Source: a virus. Taken from it: 33,749 nt of DNA. The translations under genes and the position numbers were made by a program. The first letter of the stretch is position 1, and every line of letters begins with the position of its first letter. The notes below the pieces were generated by a model that was not told the origin of the DNA, ran no database searches, and saw nothing but the letters and a program-made list of their open reading frames with translations. Below, in pieces: positions 4,229 to 15,322 of this stretch. The DNA is taken from the IMG/VR virus record IMGVR_UViG_3300030109_001830, positions 1 to 33,749 of that record; one strand, 5' to 3'.

Positions 4229-4257
4229 TTTACAAAACTAAAATAATATAGTATTAT
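4229..4257 (+). promoter_or_regulatory. Sigma70-like promoter P1 of the repeated phage promoter family
   Basis: TTTACA (4229-4234), a 17-base spacer and TATTAT (4252-4257), followed 36 bases later by the amidoligase start. The box and spacer (AAACTAAAATAATATAG) are closely matched by copies at 10721 and 21022, which supports function beyond simple AT-richness. It would drive the amidoligase/cyclotransferase operon. Confidence 0.7.
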
Positions 4258-4293: not shown

Positions 4294-5199
4294 ATGAATA
4301 CTAAAGAAAAACTACAAAATAGTTTCGCAAATACTACACAACTTGCTGGTACATACGGAATAGAGGTTGAGTTCGTCAATCGTTCAGGTTTATCACACCA
4401 CGATATTGCTGACATGATGTCTGACTACTTACATGAGATTGGTTCTGACGAAAAAATTACTGCTTGTTCTTATGGTCGTGCAGGTTCTTACAATAATAAT
4501 GATCAATGGGCGATTCACCCTGATTCATCTTGTGGGTTAGAAATGCCTACACCGATTCTTACTGGTGAACATGGTTTACAGAGATTAGAACTAATGATAG
4601 AAGTTCTAAAAATTGTTACTAACGATCAGGTTTCAGTTAACAGTCGATGTGGCTTACATGTTCACTTAGGTAAAGCACAGTTCAACAATATGAACCACCT
4701 TACTAAGTTCGTTGCAAACTACATGTACTACGAACCAGCAATCGACAAGTTAGTTCCTGAATCTAGGAGAGGTAACCAGAATCGTTCTTACGCTTCTAGT
4801 ATTCACAGTCCTGTTGATCAGAAAGCTATCAAGTCAGGTGACTGGGAAACAGGAGTGAATGGCATTGACAAGTTGAGATACGTGAAAAATGCTCAACACA
4901 TTACTAGGCGAGGTGCAAAAATTAATATCACAGGTTACAAACCTACGATAGAAGTTAGACACCACTCAGGTTCTCTAAATATTGACAAGATTTCTACATG
5001 GGTTAGATTCCTAGACTTCATGGTTAGATGGTCAGGTCTTAAGGAAACAAGAGTTCCAAACATTAACATCTACGATTTCACAGATGACAGAGATGCTTAC
5101 ACTCATAAAGTTTGGTTGCAGTTACTTTCTAAAATGAATGTGACAGGTCAGCAAGAGTTGGCTAATGAATTAAAAAAACGAGCTAGACAGTTGTCATAA
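4294..5199 (+). CDS. Amidoligase (COOH-NH2 ligase, Amidoligase_2 family)
   Basis: A 301-residue ATP-dependent ligase of the glutamine-synthetase-like fold, predicted to join a carboxylate to an amine to form an amide. Conserved blocks are visible in order: YGIEVEF (21-27; acidic metal/ATP ligands E24 and E26), W72 with D77 and E83 (WAIHPDSSCGLE), CGLHVH (119-124), an Arg-rich PESRRGNQNR loop (155-164), and a TIEVRHHSGSLN block (218-229). All key positions seem present, so the enzyme is probably active. GGAGG at 4283-4287 precedes the ATG. It is the first gene after promoter P1 and lies 12 bases ahead of a gamma-glutamylcyclotransferase, a pairing described by comparative genomics of this family for peptide or metabolite modification. 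The substrate cannot be read from sequence. Confidence 0.85.
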   Translation: MNTKEKLQNSFANTTQLAGTYGIEVEFVNRSGLSHHDIADMMSDYLHEIGSDEKITACSYGRAGSYNNNDQWAIHPDSSCGLEMPTPILTGEHGLQRLELMIEVLKIVTNDQVSVNSRCGLHVHLGKAQFNNMNHLTKFVANYMYYEPAIDKLVPESRRGNQNRSYASSIHSPVDQKAIKSGDWETGVNGIDKLRYVKNAQHITRRGAKINITGYKPTIEVRHHSGSLNIDKISTWVRFLDFMVRWSGLKETRVPNINIYDFTDDRDAYTHKVWLQLLSKMNVTGQQELANELKKRARQLS

Positions 5200-5211
5200 G
5201 GGAGGTTCATA

Positions 5212-5883
5212 ATGACTGAAGAAAAAAACATAGGAAAAAACTTATACAAGAGTTACACATACCAACATGACTGGAATTCTAAATGGGAGTTCCAGTCACT
5301 AAAAAAAGCAGATGATAAGTTTCACACTACAGAATACTATCTAGCTTATGGTTCTAACCTTAACTTAGGACAATTAAAACACAGATGCCCTAATGCTAAG
5401 CATGTCGGTAATGTTACAGTTGACGACTGGCAATTAGTGTTCAGAGGTGTTGCAGATATTGAGCCAGCAGTTGGCAAAAAATTAGTTGCAGGTATATTCA
5501 AAATATCTAAGCAAGATGAGGTTGCACTTGACCGATACGAGGGCTACCCAAATCTATACTACAAAGATTTTATGGATATGCAACTTGATGGTCAGCCGAT
5601 CAAAGTTATGTACTACAAAATGCACAAGTCAGGTATCGCTAGACCTAGCGACTACTACTACAAAACTATACTGCAAGGTTTCATGGACTGTGGTCTTGAT
5701 ATTTCTGTACTAGCCGAAGCATACAATCACACTTTGGCTAATATTACTACAGACCCCTCAGGACATCACTTTCCTAAAAGAAAGGGTAAAGTTACCAAAA
5801 AGAATAAAAACGCTTCCAGAGGTATCATTAAACGCTTCAGGGATCAGTTAAATAAAAAACACAATACACACAAAGGAGGATAG
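5212..5883 (+). CDS. Gamma-glutamylcyclotransferase / AIG2-like protein
   Basis: A 223-residue protein whose core (about residues 41-165) is a GGCT/AIG2 fold. YLAYGSN at 43-49 is the diagnostic substrate loop, RCPNA follows at 58-62, and FRGVADIEPAVG (77-88) leads to LDRYEGYP (106-113), where E110 matches the family's catalytic glutamate. These enzymes release a gamma-glutamyl group as 5-oxoproline. The family domain is usually about 110-150 residues; here it has a 40-residue N-terminal extension and a very basic C-terminal tail (KRKGKVTKKNK and onward), which could bind nucleic acid. GGGAGG at 5200-5205 precedes the ATG. It probably edits or reverses the product of the neighbouring amidoligase (inference from pairing). 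Confidence 0.85.
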   Translation: MTEEKNIGKNLYKSYTYQHDWNSKWEFQSLKKADDKFHTTEYYLAYGSNLNLGQLKHRCPNAKHVGNVTVDDWQLVFRGVADIEPAVGKKLVAGIFKISKQDEVALDRYEGYPNLYYKDFMDMQLDGQPIKVMYYKMHKSGIARPSDYYYKTILQGFMDCGLDISVLAEAYNHTLANITTDPSGHHFPKRKGKVTKKNKNASRGIIKRFRDQLNKKHNTHKGG

Positions 5884-5884
5884 T

Positions 5885-6121
5885 GTGAAAAAAATAAAGA
5901 ATCAAAAGAAAGCGATAATCAAAGTCAATGGCGAAGATTATGTGAAAGTTTCATCAATAAGACAAGTTGAAATAATTGGCGAGGAAACTGTCATAAACCT
6001 AAAGAGTGGCAGAACTTATGTGAGGTTCGGTGATGGCAAATCCTACTGCGAGGAAATAGATGGGCAAGAATATAAAATCCATGTCGCTACAAAAATAAAG
6101 TATGTTGGGAATCGCTCCTAA
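5885..6121 (+). CDS. Small beta-rich protein, third gene of the amidoligase operon
   Basis: A 78-residue protein with GTG start at 5885, just after the cyclotransferase stop (TAG 5881-5883) and with AAAGGAGGA at 5874-5882 as ribosome-binding site. After a basic N-terminus it predicts a compact run of beta strands (IIKVNGEDYVKVSSIRQVEI, then VINLKSGRTYVRF), reminiscent of a small barrel. No catalytic motif is visible. The codons for its last residues form the 5' arm and loop of a 14-bp hairpin that ends the operon. Function unknown; the context suggests a partner of the two enzymes. Confidence 0.7.
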   Translation: MKKIKNQKKAIIKVNGEDYVKVSSIRQVEIIGEETVINLKSGRTYVRFGDGKSYCEEIDGQEYKIHVATKIKYVGNRS

Positions 6122-6129
6122 CATACTTT
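6097..6129 (+). terminator. Hairpin across the stop codon, likely terminator or processing site
   Basis: AAAGTATGTTGGGA (6097-6110), loop ATCGC, TCCTAACATACTTT (6116-6129): a 14-bp stem with a single G-T pair. There is no long U-tract afterwards, so it is not a textbook intrinsic terminator. It spans the TAA stop of the upstream gene, and the last three bases of its 3' arm are the first three bases of a -35 box (TTTACA, 6127-6132). Confidence 0.55.
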
Positions 6130-6154
6130 ACAAAATTAAAATATCATATAAAAT
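6127..6154 (+). promoter_or_regulatory. Promoter P2 of the repeated family
   Basis: TTTACA (6127-6132), a 16-base spacer and TAAAAT (6149-6154). The flanking ATACTTTACAAAA is shared with other copies, although the spacer is one base shorter than in P1, P3 and P5. It lies 35 bases before the glycosylase-like gene at 6190. Confidence 0.5.
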
Positions 6155-6189
6155 TATATTGTTCAAAACAATTAGTGAAAGGTTACAAA

Positions 6190-6618
6190 ATGCAGACATT
6201 CTTACCATATCCAGACATACTACAGAGCGTACAATGTCTTGATTACAAACGACTAGGTAAACAGAGGGTTGAAGCCATGCAGACTTACAACCAAATTACC
6301 ACAGGCAGAGGTGGTTATCCACATCACCCTGTCAATAATATGTGGCGTGAATATCCTAGTGCGTTAGCATACTATCACAACGCTTGTATCATGGAGTGGT
6401 GTGCTAGAGGTTACAAAAATACTATGCAATATTTACCGATAGATGATCTAGTTATGCCCTACTGGTTAGGTAATGACAAGTTACATCTATCACATAAATC
6501 TAACCTTATGAGGAAAGATCCCGAGTACTATGGTCAGTTTGACTGGCAAGTTCCTGACAATCTACCTTATATATGGATTAATAGAGGAGGAGGTGCAGAA
6601 CTATTAAAGACTACCTAA
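6190..6618 (+). CDS. Pyrimidine-dimer DNA glycosylase-like protein (Pyr_excise family)
   Basis: A 142-residue protein resembling the phage family annotated as pyrimidine dimer DNA glycosylase / endonuclease V. Recognisable blocks are MQTFLPYPD at the N-terminus, CLDYKRLGKQRVEAMQ (16-31), a HHPVNNMW block, CARGYKNT and a RKDPEYYG-type block near the end. ATG 6190 is chosen over GTG 6175 because GAAAGG (6177-6182) sits at correct spacing for it. In the T4 enzyme the N-terminal threonine amine is the nucleophile; here residue 2 is glutamine, so base-excision activity of the T4 type is doubtful. It may instead act on another DNA lesion or modified base. First gene after promoter P2. Confidence 0.6.
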   Translation: MQTFLPYPDILQSVQCLDYKRLGKQRVEAMQTYNQITTGRGGYPHHPVNNMWREYPSALAYYHNACIMEWCARGYKNTMQYLPIDDLVMPYWLGNDKLHLSHKSNLMRKDPEYYGQFDWQVPDNLPYIWINRGGGAELLKTT

Positions 6619-12135: not shown

Positions 12136-12840
12136 ATGGAACTAAAAAATCGTATCAAAGAACACATCACAGTAAAGAAATCAGAGATAAGACCTAATCC
12201 TAACAACTGGCGATTACACCCAACAGAACAAATAGAGGGATTGACTACTGTACTAAAAGACATTGGTTTCGTAGATGAATTGTTAGTTATAGAAGATCCA
12301 GAAAAGAAAGCTACATATATGCTAATTGATGGTGAAGCCAGATGGTCAGTTCACGAAGCTGATGATATTCTGCCATGTGCTGTGCTAGATTTGACAGAAG
12401 AAGAAGCTAAGATTGTACTTACTACTTTTGATCCTATATCTAGTTTCGCAGGTACAGACCCTAGAAAACTAGAAAGCTTGATGAAGAATACAGATATGCA
12501 AAAACTTGAGGAAGATGTATCTGATGAAATGAAAACTCTCATGGCAGATATTGATGAGAAATTTGCAACAGGATACAACGAACTGCCACCACAAGAAACT
12601 GACGCATACTTCGTAGAAAATGAAAGAGAAGCGTTACCACCAAGCGAATATATGAAAAATAAAGAAGCAGGTACAATACCAGAATCTGCTCAAAGCATAC
12701 AAATAAAAGTTAGTCCTGAAGAATATGAAGCTTGTATGCAACGACTGAAAGAGTTGGCACAAGTATACAGCACGAATACTTTGAGCGATACATTTGTCAA
12801 ACTAATACAGGAGAGCAAAAACTATTATGATGGAGATTAG
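12136..12840 (+). CDS. ParB-like domain protein of the DNA-modification operon
   Basis: A 234-residue protein. The N-terminal 100 residues are the ParB-like domain often seen in phage DNA-modification loci: IRPNPNNWRLHP (18-29), a GFVDELLVIED strand (44-54), LIDGEAR (63-69) and a LDLTEEEAKIVLTTFDPIS segment after that. The C-terminal half is acidic and helical without a recognised domain; in related phage proteins a methyltransferase can follow this domain, but none is fused here. It overlaps the TET-like gene by 14 bases. Comparative genomics has linked ParB-type domains with phage base-hypermodification operons, so a role in targeting or regulating modification is plausible. No ribosome-binding site is visible before ATG 12136. 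Confidence 0.75.
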   Translation: MELKNRIKEHITVKKSEIRPNPNNWRLHPTEQIEGLTTVLKDIGFVDELLVIEDPEKKATYMLIDGEARWSVHEADDILPCAVLDLTEEEAKIVLTTFDPISSFAGTDPRKLESLMKNTDMQKLEEDVSDEMKTLMADIDEKFATGYNELPPQETDAYFVENEREALPPSEYMKNKEAGTIPESAQSIQIKVSPEEYEACMQRLKELAQVYSTNTLSDTFVKLIQESKNYYDGD

Positions 12841-13729
12841 ACTTAGAAGTAAAATTTCTAAAGAAGAACTTGACGAAAAACTTGGCAGGATAATAACAGA
12901 AAAAGATGTTAATGTAGTCCTCACTAATCCTTGCAAGGTGTTGAAGCCGAATGGTGACCCTTTACTTATATATTTACCCAAAGCTATACCAGAAGATGTT
13001 GCTGAAAGGTCTTATGAGATATTGCACACAATACAAAGTGTCAGTGACAATAGAGGTATGGCAAGTGGCTCTAAAAGAGTTAAGCGTGGCAAGACATCAA
13101 GAGCCAACAATATAAAGAGTAGCGTAATAGGTCATTTTGATCCTTATAAAAACTGGCACCCATTCTGCAGAACGACAGCATGGACTGGTGCACACGCAGA
13201 AGAATTTAAAGAACTGATCCCAATGTTTCAAGCATGTGCTGATAATTTTGAGAAGCACGTTCCTAATAGATATGCCATACAAAAACGCAGATGTGAATCT
13301 ACTAAGCAGGAATGGGTTATAGGTAAGACACCATTTACAACGATTACTGTAAATAATACTTATCCTACTGGCGTACACAAAGACAAAGGTGATCTTGAAT
13401 CAGGATTCAGTAACTTGGCATGCCTAAGACGTGGCGATTATGATGGTGGCATATTAACCTTCCCAGAATTTAGAGTAGGCGTTGACATGCAAGATAGGGA
13501 TTTAATACTCATGGACGCACATGAATGGCATGGAAATACAGAGCTTGATTTAAAATCTGCTGACGCTGAAAGAATATCTCTTGTTTTATATTACAGGACA
13601 AACATGCTTCAATGTGGCACAGCTGAAGAAGAAATAGAGAAAGCAAAAAAACAGATACAATGGTATACAGAGGAAGAACTAGAAGCTCATGATTTAAAGG
13701 AGTCAGTAACTTTAGCAAAGGACAGGTAG
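12827..13729 (+). CDS. TET/JBP-family 2-oxoglutarate/Fe(II) dioxygenase
   Basis: A 300-residue DNA-base oxygenase. In characterised phage relatives the enzyme oxidises 5-methylcytosine in DNA to 5-hydroxymethylcytosine; JBP relatives oxidise thymine. The iron-binding triad is visible as H184 and D186 in TGVHKDKGD, and H235 in DAHEWHGN (230-237). R249 in AERISLVLYYR is the 2-oxoglutarate-binding arginine, and GGILTFPEFRVGVD (207-220) is the family's strand block. The upstream domain carries the typical CRTTAW (114-119) and VPNRYAIQ (145-152) blocks. All catalytic residues are present. GGAG at 12811-12814 precedes the ATG. Two glycosyltransferases follow, as expected for a glycosylated hydroxymethyl base. 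No DNA cytosine methyltransferase is visible in the window. Confidence 0.88.
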   Translation: MMEIRLRSKISKEELDEKLGRIITEKDVNVVLTNPCKVLKPNGDPLLIYLPKAIPEDVAERSYEILHTIQSVSDNRGMASGSKRVKRGKTSRANNIKSSVIGHFDPYKNWHPFCRTTAWTGAHAEEFKELIPMFQACADNFEKHVPNRYAIQKRRCESTKQEWVIGKTPFTTITVNNTYPTGVHKDKGDLESGFSNLACLRRGDYDGGILTFPEFRVGVDMQDRDLILMDAHEWHGNTELDLKSADAERISLVLYYRTNMLQCGTAEEEIEKAKKQIQWYTEEELEAHDLKESVTLAKDR

Positions 13730-13758
13730 TTTATCACCCTTGACATGCTAAAACGCTG

Positions 13759-13780
13759 TCTGAGGGCTTCTGAGGGCTTC
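13759..13780 (+). repeat. Short tandem repeat in the gap after the dioxygenase gene
   Basis: TCTGAGGGCT occurs twice in tandem (13759-13768 and 13769-13778) followed by another TC, within the 85-base gap between the dioxygenase and the first glycosyltransferase. It may be a binding site or a replication-slippage product. The rest of the gap is AT-rich with no clear ribosome-binding site for ATG 13815. Confidence 0.6.
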
Positions 13781-13814
13781 ATAAAATAAGAAATTTAAGT
13801 AGAAATAAACAAAT

Positions 13815-14525
13815 ATGACTGATTTCAAACAAAATGACAAATTTCGTGACAGTTATAATATTTATACTATTTCACTAAATACTGACGTTGGTAACCACAG
13901 AAAGTCGTTGCTAAATTTTGACACCGAAATATTTGAAGCATGTACTTATGAAAGTAGTCCGCAATTTATAAAAGACAAATTTAAGTTTTTCAAGATAGGC
14001 AAGAAAACAGCAAGACCAATATCAGGACAGCATGGTACTATCGGGTGCTTCAGTAGTCATTACCTTGTTATAAAAAAAATAGCAGATGAACAAATTGATA
14101 ATGCAATAATTACAGAAGATGACGCTATGCAAAAAGCAAACTTGCCTGATCCTAGCATATTTACAGAGCCGACATTGTTAGGTGCTTTTTTACATCACCC
14201 TACAAGTTTCAGAGATACTGAACGCTGGGCTAAAGAAGTAATGCCTGAAATTATATTTAGTTGGTCTACTAATGTGATAGAGATAGATTATAGTATATTT
14301 AGATGGCGTGGCTGCCATAGTTATTTATTTCCTAAGTGGCAACAAGCTAAAAAAATAGTAGAGCATATAGAAAACGCATCATTTTTGAAAGCAATAGACA
14401 CAGAACTACCGAATAATAAACTTCTTAACCACTTACACTACCCTGCCATTTTTGAGCAACGCAGAGATTTAAAAAGTCAGATTGAAACTAATTTATATGC
14501 AGGTGAAAGAAAGAGTATGATATGA
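13815..14525 (+). CDS. GT25-like glycosyltransferase of the modification operon
   Basis: A 236-residue protein resembling LPS glycosyltransferase family 25. An N-terminal YTISLNTD strand is followed by ISGQHGTIGCFSSH (69-82), matching the GxxGCxxSH signature, and by AIITEDDAM (97-105), whose EDD is the family's metal/nucleotide-sugar-binding acidic motif. It would transfer a sugar from a nucleotide-sugar donor. Because it is between the dioxygenase and another glycosyltransferase, the likely acceptor is the hydroxymethylated DNA base or a sugar already on it, rather than lipopolysaccharide (inference). ATG 13815 lacks a clear Shine-Dalgarno site. The stop overlaps the next start (ATGA at 14522). 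Confidence 0.72.
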   Translation: MTDFKQNDKFRDSYNIYTISLNTDVGNHRKSLLNFDTEIFEACTYESSPQFIKDKFKFFKIGKKTARPISGQHGTIGCFSSHYLVIKKIADEQIDNAIITEDDAMQKANLPDPSIFTEPTLLGAFLHHPTSFRDTERWAKEVMPEIIFSWSTNVIEIDYSIFRWRGCHSYLFPKWQQAKKIVEHIENASFLKAIDTELPNNKLLNHLHYPAIFEQRRDLKSQIETNLYAGERKSMI

Positions 14526-15322
14526 AAGCACAGATAGTGATACCTAGTTATAAAAGAGTAGACATCTTAAAAAATAAAACTTTAGCGATGCTGCGTAGTT
14601 ATAATGTGCCAGACAATAAATGCAAGATATATGTAGCTACTGACGAACAATTAACTGAATACCAAAATGAAATCAAAGGCGAATATGATTGGCAGGTGAT
14701 AGGGCGTCCAGGTATCGGTTACCTTAGAAACTACATATCGCAAAATAATAAAGCAAACGAATGGTTGTTATGGATTGATGATGACATAGAAGAAGTGCTG
14801 TACCTACAAGATAACAAACTAGAAAGAATACCTGACCTAAATGTTATGATAGACCAGATGATTGTTGATGCTGACGCACTAGGTAGTGGGCAAGTTGGCA
14901 TATACCCTGTCAATAATCATTTCTTTATGAAGCCAAAAATAACAATAGATCTTAGATTTATTATTGGTTGCTTCTGTCTTACTAAGAATGATCCAGAATG
15001 TGAGGAACGTACATTTGACTTAGTAGAAGATTTTGAAAGAACTTTAAAGTATTATTTAAAATACAATAAAAGTATGAGGTATGAAAACATTACAGTAAAG
15101 ACAAACTATATGCTACCAGTTGGTGGCATACATGAAACTGGTATAAGAACTAACTCATTAAAAGAAGCAGAGGTTGACAGGTTTATTGAATTATTCAGTG
15201 CATGGTGTACAAAAAAATATAAAGCAAACAATCAGGTAGATATAAAATTTTTAACAAAACCACAAGAAGTAGTATTCAACTATAAAGAATGGCTCGACCA
15301 ATTAAATATACAAAAGCATTAG
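14522..15322 (+). CDS. GT-A glycosyltransferase, TET-associated type
   Basis: A 266-residue GT-A-fold glycosyltransferase. The N-terminus AQIVIPSYKR (3-12) is the nucleotide-binding strand, GRPGIGYLRN (61-70) follows, and WLLWIDDDIEEV (81-92) carries the DDD at 86-88 that would bind the metal and sugar-nucleotide. Downstream are RFIIGCFCL and a VEDFERTL segment. The arrangement matches the TET-associated glycosyltransferases described next to phage TET/JBP enzymes, which act on 5-hydroxymethyl bases in DNA. It starts in an ATGA overlap with the GT25-like gene. Its C-terminus overlaps the terminase small subunit by 34 bases, physically linking modification to packaging. Confidence 0.78.
   Translation: MKAQIVIPSYKRVDILKNKTLAMLRSYNVPDNKCKIYVATDEQLTEYQNEIKGEYDWQVIGRPGIGYLRNYISQNNKANEWLLWIDDDIEEVLYLQDNKLERIPDLNVMIDQMIVDADALGSGQVGIYPVNNHFFMKPKITIDLRFIIGCFCLTKNDPECEERTFDLVEDFERTLKYYLKYNKSMRYENITVKTNYMLPVGGIHETGIRTNSLKEAEVDRFIELFSAWCTKKYKANNQVDIKFLTKPQEVVFNYKEWLDQLNIQKH

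Follow-up and report, generated by a model that had tools for sequence, protein, structure and literature searches.

Positions 4,294 to 6,121 of an IMG/VR virus sequence (IMGVR_UViG_3300030109_001830) hold three open reading frames (ORFs) on one strand, encoding a predicted amidoligase, a predicted gamma-glutamylcyclotransferase (GGCT) and a 78-residue protein. We analysed this unit in the stretch referred to here as the window, the 33,749 nucleotides (33.7 kb) taken from a record of 35,040 bases. The three ORFs nearly touch, being separated by 12 bases and by 1 base, and have ribosome-binding sites of the GGAGG type (Table 1). The pairing of the first two genes is conserved but already described and, judged by sequence, the window unit is a divergent member of a known phage pair.

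Table 1. Features of the amidoligase–GGCT unit and its borders in the window.
Feature	Position	Strand	Evidence
Promoter-like element TTTACA-N17-TATTAT	4229–4257	+	17-mer TTTACAAAANTNAAATA within; motif count in window
Amidoligase (Amidoligase_2; predicted glutamine-synthetase/YbdK-like fold), 301 aa	4294–5199	+	PF12224, phrog_2443, AlphaFold2 model, tree
Predicted GGCT, 223 aa	5212–5883	+	PF06094, phrog_2520, human GGCT profile match, tail statistics
78-aa orphan, GTG start, begins one base past the GGCT stop codon	5885–6121	+	Family libraries and tblastn: no match
15-bp hairpin closing the unit, overlaps the stop of the 78-aa gene	6096–6130	+	−18.7 kcal/mol, z −7.7
Second promoter-motif copy, opens the next unit (Pyr_excise gene, 6175–6618)	6127–6154	+	Motif search

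Profile searches bore out the enzyme assignments of an initial annotation made from the sequence alone. ORF1 matched Amidoligase_2 (PF12224) at 1e-19 and 71.9 bits, above the curated cut-off of 22, as well as phrog_2443 (1e-19), while ORF2 matched the GGACT/GGCT family (PF06094) at 3e-8 and 34.6 bits, above the cut-off of 22.8, and phrog_2520 at 1e-29. Alignment with phage relatives showed that ORF1 contains the conserved acidic, histidine and arginine active-site set of Amidoligase_2, and that it retains every residue invariant among the closer phage relatives (G22, E24, E26, D77, S79, E83, H122, H124, R206, N211, E220 and R222). The GGCT keeps the family-invariant YGSN at residues 46–49 and the catalytic-type glutamate E110. 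Substituted catalytic residues, which the initial annotation had named as the finding that would count against it, were thus seen in neither enzyme. Because the residues invariant across the phage-relative alignments are all kept, both proteins look like active enzymes.

An AlphaFold2 model of the amidoligase, built from a 71-sequence alignment, had a predicted local distance difference test score (pLDDT) of 83 and a predicted template modelling score of 0.85. Its top match in the PDB was the gamma-glutamylcysteine-ligase-like YbdK (1tt4; Z 14.0, 231 residues, root-mean-square deviation 3.7, 17% identity), and it also matched Dop (Z 13.5), glutamine synthetases (Z ~13), PafA and, in BFVD, viral amidoligases. 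On this model, ORF1 has a glutamine-synthetase-type fold. In the amidoligase tree, the window sequence forms a very long branch whose placement is uncertain, sharing at most 32% identity with any row, and the tree has GGCT-bearing members in each of its two deep parts.

A GGCT family profile placed human GGCT (2pn7) first (7e-16), before the GGACT branch, with YGSN and the glutamate in register. The window protein adds an N-terminal extension of ~40 aa and a Lys/Arg-rich C-terminal tail with a net charge of ~+12, both as first described. Among 101 non-redundant GGCTs, a long tail with a net charge of at least +6 occurs in just 3, and a long N-terminal extension is missing from nearly all. By this distribution the two segments are local additions. 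The reading of the tail as a signal for nucleic acid does not extend to the family, and a shared targeting signal was ruled out on the same count.

Scanning IMG/VR with individual window proteins as queries returned no relatives, and alignment-based scans were required. Two such scans yielded 80 GGCT-seeded and 80 amidoligase-seeded loci; these are the best-scoring loci, near-copies included, and the fractions given here are indicative. A same-strand amidoligase was found within 1.5 kb in 68 of the 80 GGCT-seeded loci, lying directly upstream in 63, in agreement with the claim that comparative genomics had foreseen the pairing. GGCT accompanied 32 of the 80 amidoligase-seeded loci, always downstream and never upstream, and an amidoligase was present in 0 of 50 random viral records. 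The window has this arrangement, with the ligase first, on the same strand and 12 bp from the GGCT gene. The same gene order is annotated in Heliusvirales gut phages, Terrisporobacter phage TPDSL_ph1, Geobacillus phage GR1, Bacillus phages and a contig resembling an integrative conjugative element (ICE). One locus (L008:1371-2609) encodes a tandem two-domain GGCT of 412 aa after the amidoligase, followed downstream by a short hydrophobic VirB2-like protein; ICEs may also carry the pair.

We lean towards the view that the two enzymes form a self-contained phage module that adds, and then removes, a gamma-glutamyl-type group on an amine-bearing substrate. The amidoligase, as its fold and residues suggest, would activate a carboxylate with ATP, in the simplest case the gamma-carboxyl of free glutamate, and join it to an amine. 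The GGCT, from its conserved residues, would act on a gamma-glutamyl amide with a free alpha-amino group, yielding 5-oxoproline and the freed amine. In butirosin biosynthesis, the ATP-grasp ligase BtrJ adds gamma-glutamate to an amine, and the GGCT-fold enzyme BtrG removes it as 5-oxoproline; by this logic, the phage pair could serve as a protect/deprotect or proof-reading couple. The structural neighbours of the amidoligase are in keeping with such a role: YbdK, Dop and the glutamine synthetases share one fold and include ATP-dependent carboxylate-amine ligases as well as a depupylase.

Several points weigh against this proposal. To our knowledge, assays have been reported neither for a phage amidoligase nor for a phage GGCT of the present kind. 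A ligase and a cyclotransferase working on the same amide are futile unless they are kept apart in time, place or substrate, and many amidoligases, as the amidoligase-seeded loci show, occur without any GGCT. The acyl donor may also differ from glutamate, because the window ligase stands so far from the other sequences in identity and branch length. Like the initial annotation, we assign the pair no substrate. The wide host range and a published prediction from 2009 favour a peptide of the envelope or a small metabolite with an amine. Either is more likely than a tagged protein, with DNA ranking last.

That prediction, made for phiEco32 by Iyer et al. and repeated in passages of PMC11253131 and PMC11318856, was that the pair modifies cell-wall peptides; in altering host peptidoglycan or envelope peptides, it would block the adsorption of rival phages. 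Superinfection exclusion of this sort fits the presence of the pair in prophages and an ICE-like element besides phages, and relatives of the amidoligase, sought in part by a genome scan with an eight-sequence profile, are found in both Gram-negative and Gram-positive hosts. However, the listed neighbours show no recurring gene with an evident envelope role. Moreover, GGCT requires a free gamma-glutamyl alpha-amine, which is missing in the internal D-Glu of the stem peptide. We regard this explanation as possible, if rather doubtful.

GGCT breaks down gamma-glutamyl amino acids in cells, and the two enzymes could instead feed phage replication by shifting glutamate nitrogen or glutathione-type gamma-glutamyl compounds. 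A growth gain of another bacterium with ammonium was ascribed by the authors of PMC10945688 to genes of this arrangement, although in the relevant passages the effect is correlative and comes without a gene deletion. The published functions of the pair, whether cell-wall modification or nitrogen metabolism, are predictions or correlations. An auxiliary metabolic role is unlikely for the window pair, which has neither a glutathione synthase nor an amidotransferase nearby; the tight pairing with a dedicated ligase also suggests a specific product over bulk turnover.

The third gene of the unit differs from the first two in its conservation. Its 78-aa product belongs to no Pfam, PHROG or NCBIfam family and has no tblastn match across 50,697 phage records. 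The model is all-beta, compatible with the earlier description as a small beta protein, but of low confidence (pLDDT 58). FlbD-like third genes at two other loci (L085 and L148) were considered as relatives on the strength of a weak visual resemblance, which was too thin to be used. Clustering of neighbouring genes showed that the third gene varies by lineage, being DUF5049, a zinc ribbon (phrog_2945), a class-II amidotransferase (GATase_6) or a family designated c4. The DUF5049 lineage also has a second amidoligase-like paralogue and a further gene that we take to be DUF4314-like. GATase_6, which has an unrelated amide-bond hydrolase fold, replaces GGCT or stands beside it in some amidoligase loci. 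As the zinc ribbon, DUF5049 and c4 are different families, one conserved small third component was ruled out. The three-gene unit put forward by the initial annotation is therefore not a shared operon, its third gene being conserved neither in the neighbour clustering nor by tblastn. The window is among 26 loci carrying the bare amidoligase–GGCT pair: clustering placed no second amidoligase, ATP-grasp ligase, amidotransferase, DUF5049, zinc ribbon or c4 with it, and a c4 profile run at full sensitivity over all window ORFs gave no match. The 78-aa protein is most likely a lineage-specific accessory.

Two of the partner families deserve separate mention. The c4 proteins (e.g. L166:9338-9574, L139:10811-11089 and L005:4806-5045) form a family of ~80 aa and more than 60 members, with no Pfam or NCBIfam name and a best PHROG E value of 0.01; their genes mostly lie directly 3′ of phage amidoligases, whether or not GGCT is present. 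In Firmicutes phages, a second amidoligase-like protein of ~240 aa is encoded upstream of the main one (L003:6869-7597, with similar genes in L025, L030 and L036). In the alignment, the L003 copy is missing both GxExE and HxH, and Pfam gave no match for it; this copy may be a non-catalytic partner.

In most lineages, a gene next to the amidoligase encodes a small protein of ~60–95 aa, and the amidoligase model resembles the pupylation enzymes Dop and PafA, as would be expected if the ligase tagged a protein, of the host or the small partner itself, with glutamate and the GGCT stripped the tag. Yet the small proteins are unrelated across lineages and share no C-terminal motif, while a match of the Dop/PafA type is expected of any enzyme with the glutamine-synthetase fold. 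We consider protein tagging improbable.

The three genes look like a discrete transcription unit, because the promoter motif stands at its start and recurs directly after the hairpin. Allowing up to 2 mismatches, the window contains the 17-mer TTTACAAAANTNAAATA six times, where 0.6 occurrences are expected. Five of these are + strand copies with at most 1 mismatch (at 4229, 6127, 10721, 20184 and 21022), lying 48–71 nt upstream of gene starts at 4294, 6175, 10792, 20242 and 21089, and three of the five have a −10 region resembling TATAGTAT. The motif is likely a phage-specific promoter. The proposal of one operon running from promoter to hairpin is supported by this motif, the co-directional ORFs and the strength of the hairpin, but not by a U-tract: none follows the hairpin on the + strand, and terminator prediction made no call. 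Because UACAAAAUU comes next, the hairpin is no textbook terminator on that strand. A gene for a pyrimidine dimer DNA glycosylase (PF03013, 6e-22) follows the unit directly and is preceded by a separate copy of the motif.

The initial annotation further raised the possibility that the unit is coupled to base hypermodification, and asked whether it tracks with TET operons. The window genome does contain a TET operon (12136–15322) with ParB-like, Tet_JBP (1.9e-19), GT25 and TAGT genes. It lies ~6 kb beyond the amidoligase unit, has its own upstream region and does not share the promoter motif that precedes the amidoligase, and the amidoligase and GGCT genes are outside it. Across records, TET was found in 0 of 48 that were GGCT-seeded and in 1 of 50 that were amidoligase-seeded, the amidoligase of this single record having no GGCT; conversely, GGCT was found in 0 of 50 TET records. 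The same TET search detects the window's own genome, which served as positive control. TET was also found in 0 of 50 random records and, as it is rare and many records are fragments, a weak association could escape these counts. The GGCT-paired amidoligases, among which the window unit belongs by gene content, show no TET link in these counts.

Amidoligases of another kind do occur with TET. A gene of the amidoligase superfamily was present in 7 of the 50 TET records (4 above cut-off) and in 0 of 50 random ones (p ~0.006, one-sided). Among the TET records inspected more closely, one (L355) has the amidoligase next to an amidotransferase, ~9 kb from TET. Three others hold an amidoligase within the TET operon itself (L352:8918-13337, +; L353:2-3283, +; L354:5802-9764, −), together with an LMW-phosphatase-like gene, an oxidoreductase-like gene and a P-loop kinase (PF18751 in L352). 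The N-terminus of the oxidoreductase-like protein resembles an FAD/NAD-binding protein, with no Pfam match in L352, and the L352 operon adds an amino acid:DNA transferase (PF18724, 1e-19). These operons are candidates for a pathway toward amino-acid-bearing DNA bases, and because they contain amidoligases, such enzymes can belong to DNA hypermodification. The amidoligases concerned form a remote branch without GGCT, those of L352 and L354 being 17–18% identical to the window's. The suggested coupling is not supported for the GGCT-paired kind, and the remote amidoligases are the one caveat in its favour.

Despite the shared genome and the in-operon relatives, the operon separation, the record counts and the non-conserved basic tail make it very improbable that the window pair attaches an amino-acid group to DNA of the phage within the TET pathway of its own genome. 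No more likely is a version in which this phage, unlike its relatives, recruited the pair to decorate TET-derived bases with glutamyl groups, the basic tail keeping the GGCT on DNA; the amidoligases inside the TET operons of other phages would then be a separate form of this scheme.

The amidoligase–GGCT pair is widespread in phages and proviruses and has been predicted since 2009; its kept gene order and active sites, and its failure to travel with TET, remove one attractive lead. The distant amidoligases inside TET operons, one of them beside an amino acid:DNA transferase, indicate where an amidoligase may act on DNA. The window resembles the TET hypermodification systems in having a genuine TET–ParB–GT25–TAGT operon, but its amidoligase–GGCT unit stands outside that operon, and across records no co-occurrence of the pair with TET was seen. 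With YbdK and glutamate-cysteine ligase family 2, the window amidoligase shares the modelled fold over most of the chain and the GxExE metal-type motif; it differs in its low identity to YbdK and in not being matched by the Pfam model of the family at E values as high as 1. The likeness to human GGCT (C7orf24) resides in the aligned YGSN and catalytic-type glutamate, whereas the extension and basic tail are added in the window protein, which is known from sequence. The analogy with BtrJ/BtrG lies in the add-then-remove logic of a ligase and a GGCT-fold enzyme; in contrast to BtrJ, the window ligase is predicted to have the glutamine-synthetase fold, and the window contains no antibiotic pathway or carrier protein. 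The phage systems of Iyer et al. (phiEco32 and LUZ24-like phages, and later Heliusvirales, TPDSL_ph1 and Arthrobacter cluster AL) share with the window a PF12224-type ligase near a same-strand PF06094/GGCT gene, the ligase usually being upstream in the loci seeded here, as in the window. Compared with these systems, the window ligase occupies a long isolated branch and its pair is compact, consisting of two genes and lacking the additional partners seen elsewhere, and is thus convenient for biochemical assay.
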